Positions 13,194-36,986 of a stretch of DNA of 52,951 nucleotides are shown here, one piece after another. The notes beneath the pieces were generated by a model. It was not told where the DNA came from. It saw only the letters and a list, made by a program, of their open reading frames with translations, and did not search any database. Source of the stretch: Oscillospiraceae bacterium (GTDB lineage Bacteria > Bacillota > Clostridia > Oscillospirales > Oscillospiraceae); the NCBI GenBank assembly GCA_017458085.1, contig JAFTGE010000035.1, forward strand, positions 1 to 52,951, read 5' to 3'. Positions within the stretch are counted from its first letter, which is position 1. Every line of letters starts with the position of its first letter. The position numbers and the translations under genes were made by a program.

Positions 13194-14126
13194 ATGGCCG
13201 CCGATGTTGTCGGGCGCTTTGCGCCCAGTCCCTCGGGCTACATGCACCTGGGGAACCTGCTGAGCATGCTGCTGGCCTGGCTGGACTGCCGCAGGCTCGG
13301 TGGGGAGCTGGTTTTCCGCATGGAGGACCTGGACCCCGCCCGCTCCAAGCCGGTTTACATCGAGGCGCTGGCGGATGATCTGCGCTGGCTGGGGCTGGAT
13401 TGGGACCGCGGCTGGCCGGACGGCGCCTATGCCCAGTCAAACCGCACCGCTCTCTACGCGGAAGCTTTCGACCGGCTCCGAACGCAGGGCCTCGTCTACC
13501 CCTGCTTCTGCACCCGTGCCGAGCGCCTGGCCGCGGCCTCCGCTCCTCATCCGGGCGAGGCGGAATTTGACCGCGGCTGCCGCTGTTCCCATTTGGACGA
13601 ACGCGAGCGCGCCGCCCTCCTTTCCTCCGGCCGCCCCCACGCCTGGAAGCTCCGCTGCCCGGATCGGCGGATCACCGTAGTCGACGGGCATTACGGCGTC
13701 TTCACCCAAAATCCCGCCCGCGATGTGGGCGACTGTATCGTCCGCCGCGCCGACGGCGTCTTTGCCTATCAGCTGGCTGTCAGCGTGGACGACATGGCGA
13801 TGGGCGTGACGCGGGTTGTCCGCGGGCGCGATCTGCTCGCCTCCGCGCCGCGTCAGCAGTGGCTGATCGAAACGCTCGGCGGCACAGCCCCGGCCTACTG
13901 CCATGCGCCGCTGATCACCGCCGACGGCGGCAAGCTCTCCAAGCGTCTGGGCAGTCTCAGCACGCAGACGCTGCGCCGGACCCACACGCCGGAGGCGCTG
14001 GTGGGAAAGCTGGCATGGATGTGCGGTTTGACCGACTCCGCCGCGCCCGTCGCGGCAAAGGAGCTGGTCGCCGGCTTTAGCTGGGAGCGCGTAAAAACGG
14101 CGGATATCCCGTTGGATCTGTTCTGA
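13194..14126 (+). CDS. gluQ: Glutamyl-Q tRNA(Asp) synthetase
   Basis: Paralogue of the GluRS catalytic core that activates Glu and attaches it to queuosine in the anticodon of tRNA(Asp), needing no tRNA-binding anticodon domain. The 310-aa length, without that C-terminal domain, distinguishes it from GltX. Motifs are the HIGH-like PSGYMHLGN near residue 12, FRMEDLDPAR, a Cys cluster (CFC near residue 103 and CRC near 127) matching the zinc site, and KLSKR near 245 for KMSKS. Its ATG follows the YihY stop with no gap, behind GGAGG. A terminator begins at the stop codon. Confidence 0.9.
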   Translation: MAADVVGRFAPSPSGYMHLGNLLSMLLAWLDCRRLGGELVFRMEDLDPARSKPVYIEALADDLRWLGLDWDRGWPDGAYAQSNRTALYAEAFDRLRTQGLVYPCFCTRAERLAAASAPHPGEAEFDRGCRCSHLDERERAALLSSGRPHAWKLRCPDRRITVVDGHYGVFTQNPARDVGDCIVRRADGVFAYQLAVSVDDMAMGVTRVVRGRDLLASAPRQQWLIETLGGTAPAYCHAPLITADGGKLSKRLGSLSTQTLRRTHTPEALVGKLAWMCGLTDSAAPVAAKELVAGFSWERVKTADIPLDLF

Positions 14127-14148
14127 CCGGGCCTCGAAAGAGGCCCGG
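14127..14148 (+). terminator. gluQ terminator hairpin, left copy
   Basis: CCGGGCCTC-GAAA-GAGGCCCGG, a 9-bp stem with a GNRA loop, starting right after the gluQ stop. It lacks a T-run (followed by CCAATG). An identical 22-base hairpin occurs at 14323-14344. Confidence 0.8.
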
Positions 14149-14162
14149 CCAATGTGTCAACA

Positions 14163-14324
14163 AACCTCAAAAGAGCGTCATTCCGAGCCAGTGTCGCAAC
14201 ACTGGCGTGGGAATCCGTTCTCCGGTAAAGTGCTGGAAATATGCGGCTTTCGGGGAATACGGATTGCCACGTCGCTTGCGCTCCTCGCAATGACAGATGG
14301 GTACTTTGTCTACAGTCTGAAGCC
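14163..14324 (+). repeat. 162-bp repeat element, copy 1
   Basis: Matches 32701-32862 at 160 of 162 positions by eye (mismatches in the CAAAAG/CAAGAG and GGTAAAG/GGTATAG steps). It fills the 344-base gene-free gap 14127-14470. It consists of two inverted stem-loop arms. The left arm runs from GTCATTCCGAG (about 14178) to GTGGGAATCCGTT (14219); the right arm, read on the minus strand, runs from GTCATTGCGAG to GTGGCAATCCGTA. A short unique core and 3' tail (AGATGGGTACTTTGTC...) complete it. It encodes no transposase. The short ORFs it creates are non-genic. Related palindromes are, from memory, widespread in bacterial genomes. Confidence 0.9.
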
Positions 14325-14344
14325 GGGCCTCGAAAGAGGCCCGG
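14323..14344 (+). terminator. gluQ terminator hairpin, right copy
   Basis: Exact second copy of the 22-base hairpin at 14127-14148, here followed by TTTGTC, the more terminator-like context. It abuts the right end of repeat copy 1 and insulates the transporter gene downstream. Confidence 0.8.
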
Positions 14345-31678: not shown

Positions 31679-31713
31679 ACAAAGGATATGGTTTTCGCCA
31701 TATCCTTTGTTTC
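31679..31713 (+). terminator. Terminator after nupABC
   Basis: Perfect 13-bp stem (31679-31691 with 31698-31710) and 6-base loop, then TTTCGCG. It separates psuG from nupC, perhaps incompletely. Confidence 0.75.
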
Positions 31714-31745
31714 GCGTGTATATTATCAAATTACAGGAGTCCGTC

Positions 31746-32657
<912 letters not shown>

Positions 32658-32672: not shown

Positions 32673-32700
32673 AAAGCCATCGTATTCTTACGATGGCTTT
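32673..32700 (+). terminator. psuG terminator hairpin, left copy
   Basis: AAAGCCATCG paired with CGATGGCTTT, loop TATTCTTA, 15 bases after the psuG stop. The repeat element starts at the next base. Positions 32674-32700 recur exactly at 32858-32884. Confidence 0.8.
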
Positions 32701-32862
32701 AACCTCAAGAGAGCGTCATTCCGAGCCAGTGTCGCAACACTGGCGTGGGAATCCGTTCTCCGGTATAGTGCTGGAAATATGCGGCTTTCGGGGAATACGG
32801 ATTGCCACGTCGCTTGCGCTCCTCGCAATGACAGATGGGTACTTTGTCTACAGTCTGAAGCC
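32701..32862 (+). repeat. 162-bp repeat element, copy 2
   Basis: Same element as 14163-14324 with two mismatches, in the same orientation relative to the upstream gene. It starts immediately after the left psuG terminator and its last bases (AAGCC) merge into the right terminator copy. With both hairpins it fills the 306-base gene-free gap 32658-32963. Short ORFs across it are by-products. Confidence 0.9.
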
Positions 32863-32884
32863 ATCGTATTCTTACGATGGCTTT
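32858..32884 (+). terminator. psuG terminator hairpin, right copy
   Basis: Exact 27-base copy of 32674-32700, beyond the element, followed by CGCC. It insulates the glycan-cluster promoter at 32898. Confidence 0.8.
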
Positions 32885-32963: not shown

Positions 32964-33953
32964 ATGGAGAACAAGGCTTGTCTGGTGTCGATTCTCTGCA
33001 CCGCCTATAATCACGAGGCATACCTGCGCGACGCGCTGGACGGCTTTCTCATGCAGAAAACGGATTTCCCCTTTGAGATCCTTGTCAGCGACGACGCCTC
33101 CACCGATTCCACCGCGGCCATCATCCGCGAATACGCGGCAAAGTACCCCGATATTGTCAGGCCCTTTCTGCTCACGGAGAATCTGTTTTCCCGCGGCGGC
33201 AATCTGTACACCGATGTTCTGTACCCCAATATGAGGGGGAAATACGCGGCCTTTTGTGAAGGGGACGACTATTGGACCGACCCCGAAAAGCTCCAGCGGC
33301 AGGTGGACTTTCTGGAGGCGCATCCGGATTATAGCGCGTGTGTACACAATACGATGCTCCACTACTGCGACGCTGATCGGGCCGATCGCCCGCTTCTCCC
33401 CGCGCGGGGAGACCGAGACGTGGCGCTCAAGACGCTCCTATCCGGCAGCAGCTACTCCTTTCATACCAGCTCTCTTTTGGCAAGGGTCGCGCTGATCCGG
33501 GAGCCGCCGGACTATTACCGCGTGGCGCAGGCCAACGGTTTTCTGGATTACGCGCTCAACCTTTTGCTGGGGGTGAGCGGCCGGATCCGGTTTCTTGACC
33601 GCGTGATGAGCGTTTATCGAATTGGCAGCAATCCCGCGGCGTGGAGCGCCGGGGTTGACGGGCAGAATCGGGAATACCGGAAGCTGCGTCGTTTTGTCGC
33701 CGGAGAGCGGGATACGCTGCGCGCTTTCCTCCCGCATGTGAGCGGGGAGGATGCCGCCCTTGTGGAGCAGGAAATCCTTGAGAAAGAGTTTGAACTGATG
33801 TATATTGAAGGCCGCGACCGGGAACAGCGCCGTGGCCCGTACGCGCGCATCATGAAAAGCAAGCCGCTGAAGTACCGCGCTGTCAACCTGATCAAATGCT
33901 GTCTGCCGGGGCTTGCCCGCAGATATCGCAGGCGCCGCGGTTTTACCGACTGA
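32964..33953 (+). CDS. Family 2 glycosyltransferase A
   Basis: 329-aa GT-A fold transferase from ATG 32964, behind AAAGGGG. The N-terminal catalytic domain has SILCTAYNHEAYLRDAL, VSDDASTDST (nucleotide-sugar Asp pair near 43-44) and CEGDDYWTDPEKLQRQVDFL (about 95-115). No membrane anchor is seen; the C-terminal tail is basic (ARRYRRRRG), apt for membrane contact. It is a clear paralogue of the enzyme at 36006. It probably adds a sugar to a lipid-linked oligosaccharide; donor and acceptor cannot be read off. The next gene starts 20 bases later. Confidence 0.88.
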   Translation: MENKACLVSILCTAYNHEAYLRDALDGFLMQKTDFPFEILVSDDASTDSTAAIIREYAAKYPDIVRPFLLTENLFSRGGNLYTDVLYPNMRGKYAAFCEGDDYWTDPEKLQRQVDFLEAHPDYSACVHNTMLHYCDADRADRPLLPARGDRDVALKTLLSGSSYSFHTSSLLARVALIREPPDYYRVAQANGFLDYALNLLLGVSGRIRFLDRVMSVYRIGSNPAAWSAGVDGQNREYRKLRRFVAGERDTLRAFLPHVSGEDAALVEQEILEKEFELMYIEGRDREQRRGPYARIMKSKPLKYRAVNLIKCCLPGLARRYRRRRGFTD

Positions 33954-36009: not shown

Positions 36010-36986
36010 ACGATCCCATCCTCGTCTCGGTGATGTGCACCGCTTTTAATCACGAGAACTATATCCGTCAGGCGCTGGACGGCATGGTCAATCAGCAGAC
36101 CGATTTTGCCTATGAGATCCTCGTCACCGACGACGTCTCCACCGACCGCACCGCCGACATTATCCGCGAATATGAGGCGAAGTATCCCGACAAGATCCGC
36201 GCCTTTTACATGGAGCGCAATCTTTTCTCCCAGGGCATCGATATCTATTATGCGGTTCTCTTCCCCAACGCGCGCGGCAAATATACCGCCATCTGCGAAG
36301 GGGACGACTACTGGACCGACCCTACCAAGCTGCAGCGGCAGGTGGACTTTCTGGAGGCCCACCCTGACTATACCGCCTGTGTGCACAACACGGAATTGCT
36401 ATTCTGTGACGGCGGCCGTCCCAGCGAGGCGCTGGCCGCCTGTGACACCGACCGCGACATGGAGTTTTCCGACATTCTCCCCGGCATGAACAATGCCTGG
36501 CACACCAGCTCCCTGCTGGCCCGCACCGATCTGCTGGCCAACCCGCCCGACTATTACGAGGTTGCCATCGCCCACGGCTTCAGCGACTTTCCCTATGCGC
36601 TGTGGCTGCGTGAAAACGGGAAGGTGCGGTGTCTGGCCCGCTTCATGTCCGTCTACCGCGTCAACAGCGGCGCCGCCGCCTGGAGCGCCGGCGTGAAGGG
36701 ACAGTATGAAAAAAAGATCCAGTTCTATTCCGGCGCCATCGCCATGCTCGAATGCTTCCGCGCCCATGTGCGGGATGAGTCTCTGCTCCGGCTGACCGAT
36801 AAAAACATCGACCGCTGGCGCTTTGATCTTCTGTATTTACAGGGCCGGGACCGGGAGCTGCGTCAGCCCCCCTACCGCGCCATATTAAAGACCATGCCGC
36901 TGAAATTCCGCGCCATCAACTTCCTTAAATGCATGCTGCCCGGTTTGCAAAAGCTCTACCGGAGGAGAAAGGGCTATGAAAAATAA
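36006..36986 (+). CDS. Family 2 glycosyltransferase B
   Basis: 326-aa GT-A transferase, paralogue of the 32964 gene along its whole length: same SVMCTAFNHENYIRQAL, VTDDVSTDRT, CEGDDYWTDPTKLQRQVDFL and the C-terminal MPLKFRAINFLKCMLPGL tail. The start overlaps the flippase stop and its end overlaps the ATP-grasp gene by 11 bases. Two related but diverged enzymes suggest two successive linkages with similar acceptors or donors. Confidence 0.88.
   Translation: MNDPILVSVMCTAFNHENYIRQALDGMVNQQTDFAYEILVTDDVSTDRTADIIREYEAKYPDKIRAFYMERNLFSQGIDIYYAVLFPNARGKYTAICEGDDYWTDPTKLQRQVDFLEAHPDYTACVHNTELLFCDGGRPSEALAACDTDRDMEFSDILPGMNNAWHTSSLLARTDLLANPPDYYEVAIAHGFSDFPYALWLRENGKVRCLARFMSVYRVNSGAAAWSAGVKGQYEKKIQFYSGAIAMLECFRAHVRDESLLRLTDKNIDRWRFDLLYLQGRDRELRQPPYRAILKTMPLKFRAINFLKCMLPGLQKLYRRRKGYEK

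Follow-up and report, generated by a model that had tools for sequence, protein, structure and literature searches.

Gene-free relatives of an IS1182-family insertion sequence lie between duplicated hairpins in an Oscillospiraceae genome

The stretch of DNA analysed here (the window; 52,951 nt, contig JAFTGE010000035.1 of the Oscillospiraceae bacterium assembly GCA_017458085.1) carries two copies of a short element without a gene, each lying between two copies of one complete hairpin. Taken as a whole, the findings presented below are best explained, with a probability of roughly 85%, by a MITE moved by a hairpin-guided DDE transposase of the IS1182 family, which would join the element at the 5′ feet of a hairpin and leave the hairpin to be copied by repair.

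At the locus that was first noticed (locus 2), the upstream gene, whose terminator appears to have been targeted, spans 31707..32657 (+ strand) and matches Pfam family PF04227 (Indigoidine_A); a previous sequence-only reading of the window had called it psuG. Self-comparison and flank scoring place a left copy of the terminator hairpin, AAGCCATCGTATTCTTACGATGGCTTT, at 32674..32700 (+), followed by copy 2 of the MITE at 32701..32857 (+; 157 bp) and a right copy of the hairpin at 32858..32884 (+), past which the DNA can be aligned with that of element-free relatives. The two hairpins are identical at 27/27 positions, as that reading had stated. The right terminal inverted repeat of copy 2, TTTGTCTACAGTCTG at 32843..32857 (+), is identical to the transposase-side end of an IS1182-family element. 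Of the limits previously given for the element, 32701-32862, the left one stands and the right one has to be moved, because five bases of the supposed 162-bp element fall within the right hairpin. The left hairpin does abut the element with no extra bases, also as described before, but it does so because 13 bp of the left end have been lost: alignment of the copies shows that copy 2 is without the 13-bp left terminal repeat CAATGTGTCGACA, which is present at 14150 in copy 1 and, in slightly varied form, elsewhere among the copies.

Locus 1 follows a gene at 13194..14126 (+; PF00749, tRNA-synt_1c, Glu/Gln type, previously named gluQ). Flank comparison gives a left hairpin copy, CCGGGCCTCGAAAGAGGCCCGG, at 14127..14148 (+) and a right copy at 14323..14344 (+), which agree at 22/22 bases and are unrelated to the hairpin of locus 2, in accord with the earlier description. 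Between them lies copy 1 of the MITE, full length at about 174 bp (14149..14322, +), with a left terminal inverted repeat CAATGTGTCAACAAA at 14150..14164 (+; elsewhere most commonly CAATGTGTCGACAAA) found by alignment of the copies and a right one, TTTGTCTACAGTCTG, at 14305..14319 (+) found by its end motif. The repeat copies in the window are 99% identical over 162 bp (14163-14324 being the match at locus 1). No T-tract follows the first hairpin of locus 1 and one follows the second, so that transcription is predicted still to end there and should now do so after the element.

The element is about 174 bp long, multicopy and devoid of a transposase gene, the attributes of a MITE. Its terminal inverted repeats, TCAATGTGTCGACAAA and TCAGACTGTAGACAAA, are imperfect, with 12/16 positions matching by eye, and in copies aligned by eye the left end reads (T)CAATGTGTCGACAAACC... 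and the right end reads ...GGGTACTTTGTCTACAGTCTGA. No gene lies in the core, which consists of an extended, imperfect inverted repeat, GTCATTCCGAG...CTCGCAATGAC, and copy 1 together with its flanking hairpins has a predicted fold of -107 kcal/mol (z = -6.9); an Rfam scan of the window returned no family at the gathering score. The right end of the MITE is identical at 25/25 bases to the end of an insertion sequence (IS) in two genomes, G018 and G030, the other end being merely similar. Because of this match the window element is identified, by sequence, as a MITE of a 1.64-kb IS1182-family IS. Related short elements were also seen. Those at L022, L028 and L030 of the window's own genome (contigs C113, C74 and C20) have the core GTCATTGCGAG...CGTGGCAATCCG...GGAATGAC and differing ends (approximately GGCTGTCTCAAAACG and its inverse), with no doubled hairpin seen, so that one core occurs with several end types. 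MITEs of a second genome, G063 (L190 480-635, L186, L188 and L193), combine IS1182-type ends with other internal repeats, for example GTCATCCTGAGCGGAGCGAAG...CTTCGTTCCTCAGGATGAC in L190, and the targets of L188 and L193 are doubled hairpins too.

A blastn search of the window's own assembly (2.67 Mb, 135 contigs) with the element gave 33 matches, 12 of which span 85% or more of the query as a single piece. Flanks were read for 30 of the 33, and the first 19 were scored, three of these running off the contig. Two of the 12 long matches, L009 and L011, are cut by contig ends; at each of the remaining ten (L001-L008, L016 and L017) one hairpin is present on both sides, with scores of 22-38, and this hairpin differs from copy to copy. 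As a control, the left flank of one of these ten copies was compared with the right flank of another, and 0/90 such pairs scored 14 or more; chance is excluded as the source of the doubled hairpins. The alignment of flanks at further copies, proposed by the sequence-only reading as the observation that could overturn it, thus gave a duplicated hairpin at every copy (10/10) with both flanks and at least 85% coverage. Since a full hairpin copy stands on each side and a different hairpin is used each time, the target is apparently chosen by shape and not by sequence.

Among the shorter matches, L012 (66% of the query) has a doubled hairpin by eye, at 27/28 bases, and L009 and L010 have 30/31 hairpin bases in common and look like halves of one copy divided between contigs. 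No doubling was found at own-genome pieces without an end (L013 with L020, L014, L015 and L018) or at L019, from which the element's ends are absent and whose match extends over 76% of the query with 73% identity. Most of the shorter matches appear to be different elements with the core in common. The orientation of the element relative to the upstream gene, taken before as constant, is the same at both window copies but is not so in general. A gene runs in from one side only at six of the ten copies, genes lie on both sides at three and on neither at one; the one-sided six divide into three in the same orientation (L001, L002 and L007) and three in the opposite one (L004, L006 and L008), and a fixed orientation was rejected.

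Elements were also paired by end motif alone, blind to their flanks. This gave 41 with both flanks, two further motif pairs without flanks being dropped, and a duplicated target was present in 31 of the 41. The 31 include seven own-genome copies, which overlap with the set described above; L017 entered under looser pairing, outside the strict 41, and L001 and L016 entered under neither, one end being missing or degenerate. The duplications in the 31 have a mean of 28 bp and a range of 22-38 bp (19-40 bp over all cases seen, hence not a fixed number), and their midpoint coincides with that of the palindrome within 1 bp in 29/31 and within 2 bp in 31/31. Cross-pairing of the flanks of the 41 elements produced a score of 14 or more in 1/1640 control pairs, against the 31/41 observed. 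The reconstituted foot of the hairpin is T-rich in 25/31, a raw count without a control, and in 28/28 testable cases an open frame of at least 100 codons runs towards the element and stops no more than 150 nt away, compared with 419/840 random points. Because of these T-rich feet and converging open frames, the targets look for the most part like intrinsic terminators.

The ten motif-defined elements without a duplication are heterogeneous. L070 was mispaired by the nearest-end rule and has a duplication under looser pairing, although it is counted as non-duplicated in the strict 41. The second hairpin is absent at L190, and part of one arm is retained at L084. Unlike hairpins or arms are found on the two sides of L044 (own genome), L101, L133 and L138, and nothing duplicated was seen at L107, L156 and L186. 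The element at L044 (1389-1515, contig C20) is 127 bp long and has the same end motifs, its unlike flanking hairpins being ...CACGGCTGCGAAAGCAGCCGTGT and ACACAGCCGCGCTAAAAGCGCGGCTGTGT.

The length of the duplication is correlated with that of the computed palindrome at just r = 0.61, a value that is only moderate partly because some palindromes extend past the duplication, by up to 7 bases on each side in L008. Both observations would suit an ordinary staggered cut, large and loosely variable, for which the palindromic or bent DNA of terminators is merely a preferred substrate and the length of the hairpin is incidental. We consider this unlikely, since a variable stagger made without recognition of structure would drift, whereas the centring on the palindrome is kept within 2 bp in all 31 cases across lengths of 22-38 bp. 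Insertion guided by the hairpin itself is consistent with such centring.

The two hairpins of a pair were further compared with each other, and 38 of 51 duplicated pairs are identical. In 4/51 the second copy is the inverse of the first, as judged by one base at L005, by score at L065 and L254, and by eye over the central 20 bases at L261. The clearest of these is L254, which has a 16-nt asymmetric centre, followed by L065; at L261 the whole-length score favours a direct copy. Inverse second copies are an outcome that plain gap-filling does not predict, and could arise by resolution of a cruciform during insertion or, once the element is in place, by template switching at palindromes. The hairpin copies at L079 differ by a compensatory change of a stem pair (ACTTCCGAAGAAGT versus ACTCCCGAAGGAGT). 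At L190 (480-680) and L204 (535-830) a single hairpin copy separates a MITE from the IS, and a site therefore remains a target after insertion.

When 60 genomes (the window's own and 59 relatives) were searched with the element, right-end-only matches of 24-27 bp were also obtained. They mark the ends of a larger element that codes for a DUF772 transposase and is in most cases interrupted by the end of a contig. A scan of named genome contigs found eight loci, every one of them in uncultured Oscillospiraceae, Ruminococcaceae or Clostridiales. The full partner IS is carried by genomes of the same genus and measures 1637 bp in L133 and 1635-1637 bp across L138 and L133, which fits the size of about 1.3-1.95 kb given for the IS1182 family in ISfinder summaries; target duplications in the family range from 0 to 60 bp in ISfinder. 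The protein of the L133 copy (507 aa) scores 444.9 bits against the IS1182 profile NF033551, for which the cut-off is 270, and has the domains PF13751 (DDE_Tnp_1_6) and PF01609. D147, D304 and E431, the putative catalytic residues, are invariant in 11/11 aligned transposases. The left ends of the IS, read by eye, abut a hairpin at 8/8 loci. Neither the NF033551 profile nor a search with the partner protein found an IS1182 transposase in the window's own assembly, and no exact right end of the IS was found there; the enzyme acting in that genome is therefore one that we infer.

The sequence-only reading had advised looking for a full-length relative that codes either for a transposase or for a REP-associated tyrosine transposase. 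The IS1182-family IS answers to the former, and a REP-associated tyrosine transposase as the agent is not supported. Transposition at hairpins by a REP-associated or IS200-type Y1 (HUH) enzyme might nevertheless be proposed, as Y1 enzymes read hairpins and the genome has four Y1_Tnp matches (PF01797; C24:7739, C125:83, C43:870 and C91:4, three of them nearly full length). Y1 elements are characteristically without terminal inverted repeats and without target duplications, whereas the window element has both, and it shares its end with a DDE-type IS. Moreover, 0/4 of the Y1 matches lie beside a copy, the sole one on a copy-bearing contig (C91) being about 15 kb away. A Y1 enzyme is thus very improbable as the agent, and the assignment of the element as RAYT/REP or IS200-like HUH was rejected on the same grounds.

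Hairpins are duplicated around the IS copies themselves too. From 27 of 28 matches in G063, nine right and ten left IS contig ends could be used, and 6/9 right flanks pair with a left flank through the same hairpin, with scores of 18-29. Among the 90 cross pairs those six alone reach 14, the other 84 remaining below 10. Three right and four left ends were left unpaired, and 2 of the 19 flanks (L171 and L180) have stems shorter than 8 bp. One IS copy of G030 pairs in the same way by eye. A divergent IS1182-family copy in G016, contained in one contig, has hairpin copies on either side that are perfect at 32/32 positions, and its transposase frame looks interrupted.

Across the class, an IS1182 transposase was detected at E <= 1e-60 in 53/391 genomes. 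A sample of 50 loci (30 listed and 20 picked, several from one genome), less L286 and L287, which were too short, showed a palindromic duplication in 13/48 IS copies with flanks, one of which (L244) is on a 1.74-Mb contig. In named plasmid records the duplication was present in 6/10 IS copies, those of Acetoanaerobium noterae, Enterococcus casseliflavus, Peribacillus, Cytobacillus firmus, Sutcliffiella horikoshii and Cetobacterium somerae, and in two of six further copies, those of Alkalihalophilus pseudofirmus (L303, annotated as ISBspe1-like) and Vibrio penaeicida; these samples comprised 10 of 40 listed rows, mostly from the top, with H29 later, and 5 of 60 in a second listing. The hairpins flanking an IS of S. 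simulans (L305) differ from each other. Where left and right hairpins are unlike, for example in L133, L138 and L305, we assume exchange between copies, for which recombination is plausible, or, in MAGs, misassembly. The assembly of the window, with its 135 contigs and contig breaks at some copies, might suggest that the doubled hairpins themselves are assembly artefacts of short-read MAGs, which is hardly credible given that the same pattern occurs in the plasmid records of the eight taxa named above and on the 1.74-Mb contig of L244.

The duplicating copies are mostly confined to one clade of transposases. In a tree of 54 transposases, from which six of 60 rows shorter than 380 aa were omitted (L123, L243, L265, L280, L294 and L298, two of them duplicating), a single group of 24, with SH-aLRT support of 99, contains 17/18 duplicating rows. 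A tree of 60 transposases places 19/20 duplicating IS in one group of 28 (SH-aLRT 97), L254 being the duplicator outside it. Both are quick trees, without bootstrap, and IS1272 is not among their members, no record of that name being present in the rows listed. Within the duplicating clade 9/28 rows have no duplication. On the 60-row tree the duplication label requires at least 10 changes as against 16.6 for shuffled labels, 0/500 of which were as low. IS1182 of S. aureus and ISCfr1 of E. coli lie outside the duplicating group and show no duplication. A Fusobacteriota copy, L298, has the same duplication and is too short for placement in the tree.

The gene upstream of locus 2 (PF04227) is present in 54/61 genomes of the genus, the window's own included, and 30 of these loci were examined, one being that of the window. 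In two relatives, L226 (G016) and L215 (G029), the same gene is followed by a single hairpin and no element, and the DNA past the hairpin aligns with the right flank in the window (CATCTTTTGGTTGAAAT...TATAATAATTTG in L226). Both single hairpins differ in sequence from that of the window, so these are not strict empty sites. L230 (G012) and L217 (G033) have different elements at the locus 2 terminator, between two hairpin copies that are similar by eye, and the spot has therefore been hit independently. Hairpins after the same gene, followed by apparent ends of other related elements, were seen at L230, L217, L211 (G070) and L223 (G003). From these comparisons the terminator after the PF04227 gene looks like one that has been hit repeatedly across species. 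Duplication or recombination of a larger block carrying hairpin and element together, to which the 99% identity of the two window copies might point, can be dismissed, because the hairpins are unrelated at each of the ten own-genome copies, with 0/90 in the cross-pairing of flanks, and because in the two relatives the same gene is followed by a single hairpin, without the element. The proposal of the sequence-only reading that insertion is aimed at hairpins, and is not duplication of a larger block, is in this respect strongly supported by the duplicated hairpins at 10/10 own-genome copies and 31/41 motif-defined elements.

In the mechanism that we favour, the window MITE would be moved in trans by a DDE transposase of the IS1182 family, from a clade with the inverted repeats CAGACTGTAGACAAA or close variants. 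The target would be chosen by its shape, an inverted repeat and usually an intrinsic terminator at the 3′ end of a gene, which the transposase would recognise as an extruded hairpin or cruciform. The transposase would attach the 3′ ends of the element to the 5′ feet of the hairpin, of which each strand of the cruciform has one, so that the whole hairpin would then be single-stranded on each side of the element. Repair synthesis would fill both gaps, yielding one complete hairpin on each side and keeping the original terminator, now downstream of the element. Since repair would copy the whole hairpin, the length of the duplication would be approximately that of the hairpin. That the entire IS1182-family clade, placed in Bacillota and Pseudomonadota, reads hairpins or cruciforms with no requirement for sequence, cuts at both 5′ feet, has its duplication length set by the structure, keeps the terminator and leaves inverted copies by cruciform resolution is a broader proposition to which we would give about even odds.

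IS elements of REP palindromes target conserved REP sequences, whereas the targets described here share no sequence. What these elements have in common with the window element is a palindromic, intergenic target, according to the accessible text of PMC1525189. Targeting of palindromes by members of the IS1182 family is already in print (available portions of PMC4923244 and PMC5678879, both citing Siguier et al. 2015). As described in the same portions, IS1272 and TnSha1 of staphylococci belong, like the window element, to the IS1182 family and target stem-loops of any sequence, in many cases terminators that closely follow a gene. They differ in the outcome, as IS1272 deletes the stem-loop wholly or in part, with no target duplication, whereas the whole hairpin is duplicated around the window element (accessible text of PMC5678879 and PMC4923244). 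Hairpin replacement of the IS1272 type was rejected for the window element, at which the hairpin is present twice. In the 2017 model for IS1272, whole-hairpin duplication appears, in the part of PMC5678879 that is available, only as a hypothetical pathway b, an alternative to hairpin removal.

Among other known elements, IS of the ISBspe1 type share the transposase clade, and the A. pseudofirmus copy L303 resembles the window element in its ends and is flanked by a palindromic duplication of 20 bp; these IS are autonomous and about 1.5-1.75 kb long, whereas the window element is a 174-bp gene-free derivative. The ISMac2-related MITEs of Methanosarcina, of 160 and 169 bp, are likewise short non-coding relatives within the IS1182 family, but apparently duplicate 4 or 0 bp of the target in place of whole hairpins (PMC3852290, in its accessible sections). 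Four-bp repeats are also given for ISCaa15, another member of the family, in the available text of PMC3196728, and these together with the deletions made by IS1272 indicate that the family does not force hairpin duplication. IS1182 is one of the families for which positions between convergent genes are over-represented, as far as the accessible part of PMC9208149 reports, and this fits the targeting of terminators. A literature search returned no paper documenting whole-hairpin duplication or its distribution among clades, earlier notes of palindromic duplications in ISfinder or reviews being possible, and a search with the core and end motifs gave no relevant title among the matches listed. 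Judged from the accessible portions of these sources, palindrome targeting by the family is established, and whole-hairpin duplication and its clade distribution are apparently new.

The 51 duplicated hairpin pairs constitute a rich natural record of transposition that follows shape. Within one transposase family two opposite outcomes are found, the hairpin being kept and doubled or being removed, and whether such enzymes act on a cruciform or on a single-stranded hairpin thereby becomes directly testable. Insertion behind genes with termination preserved suggests a low-cost niche. If the proposed mechanism is true, the duplicating clade preserves the terminator at its landing site, whereas its relative IS1272 destroys it. 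Elsewhere in the window, downstream of locus 2, positions 33180-33372 and 36219-36411 are 73% alike; the first lies within a glycosyltransferase-2 gene, and the pair may represent a duplicated glycosyltransferase domain.
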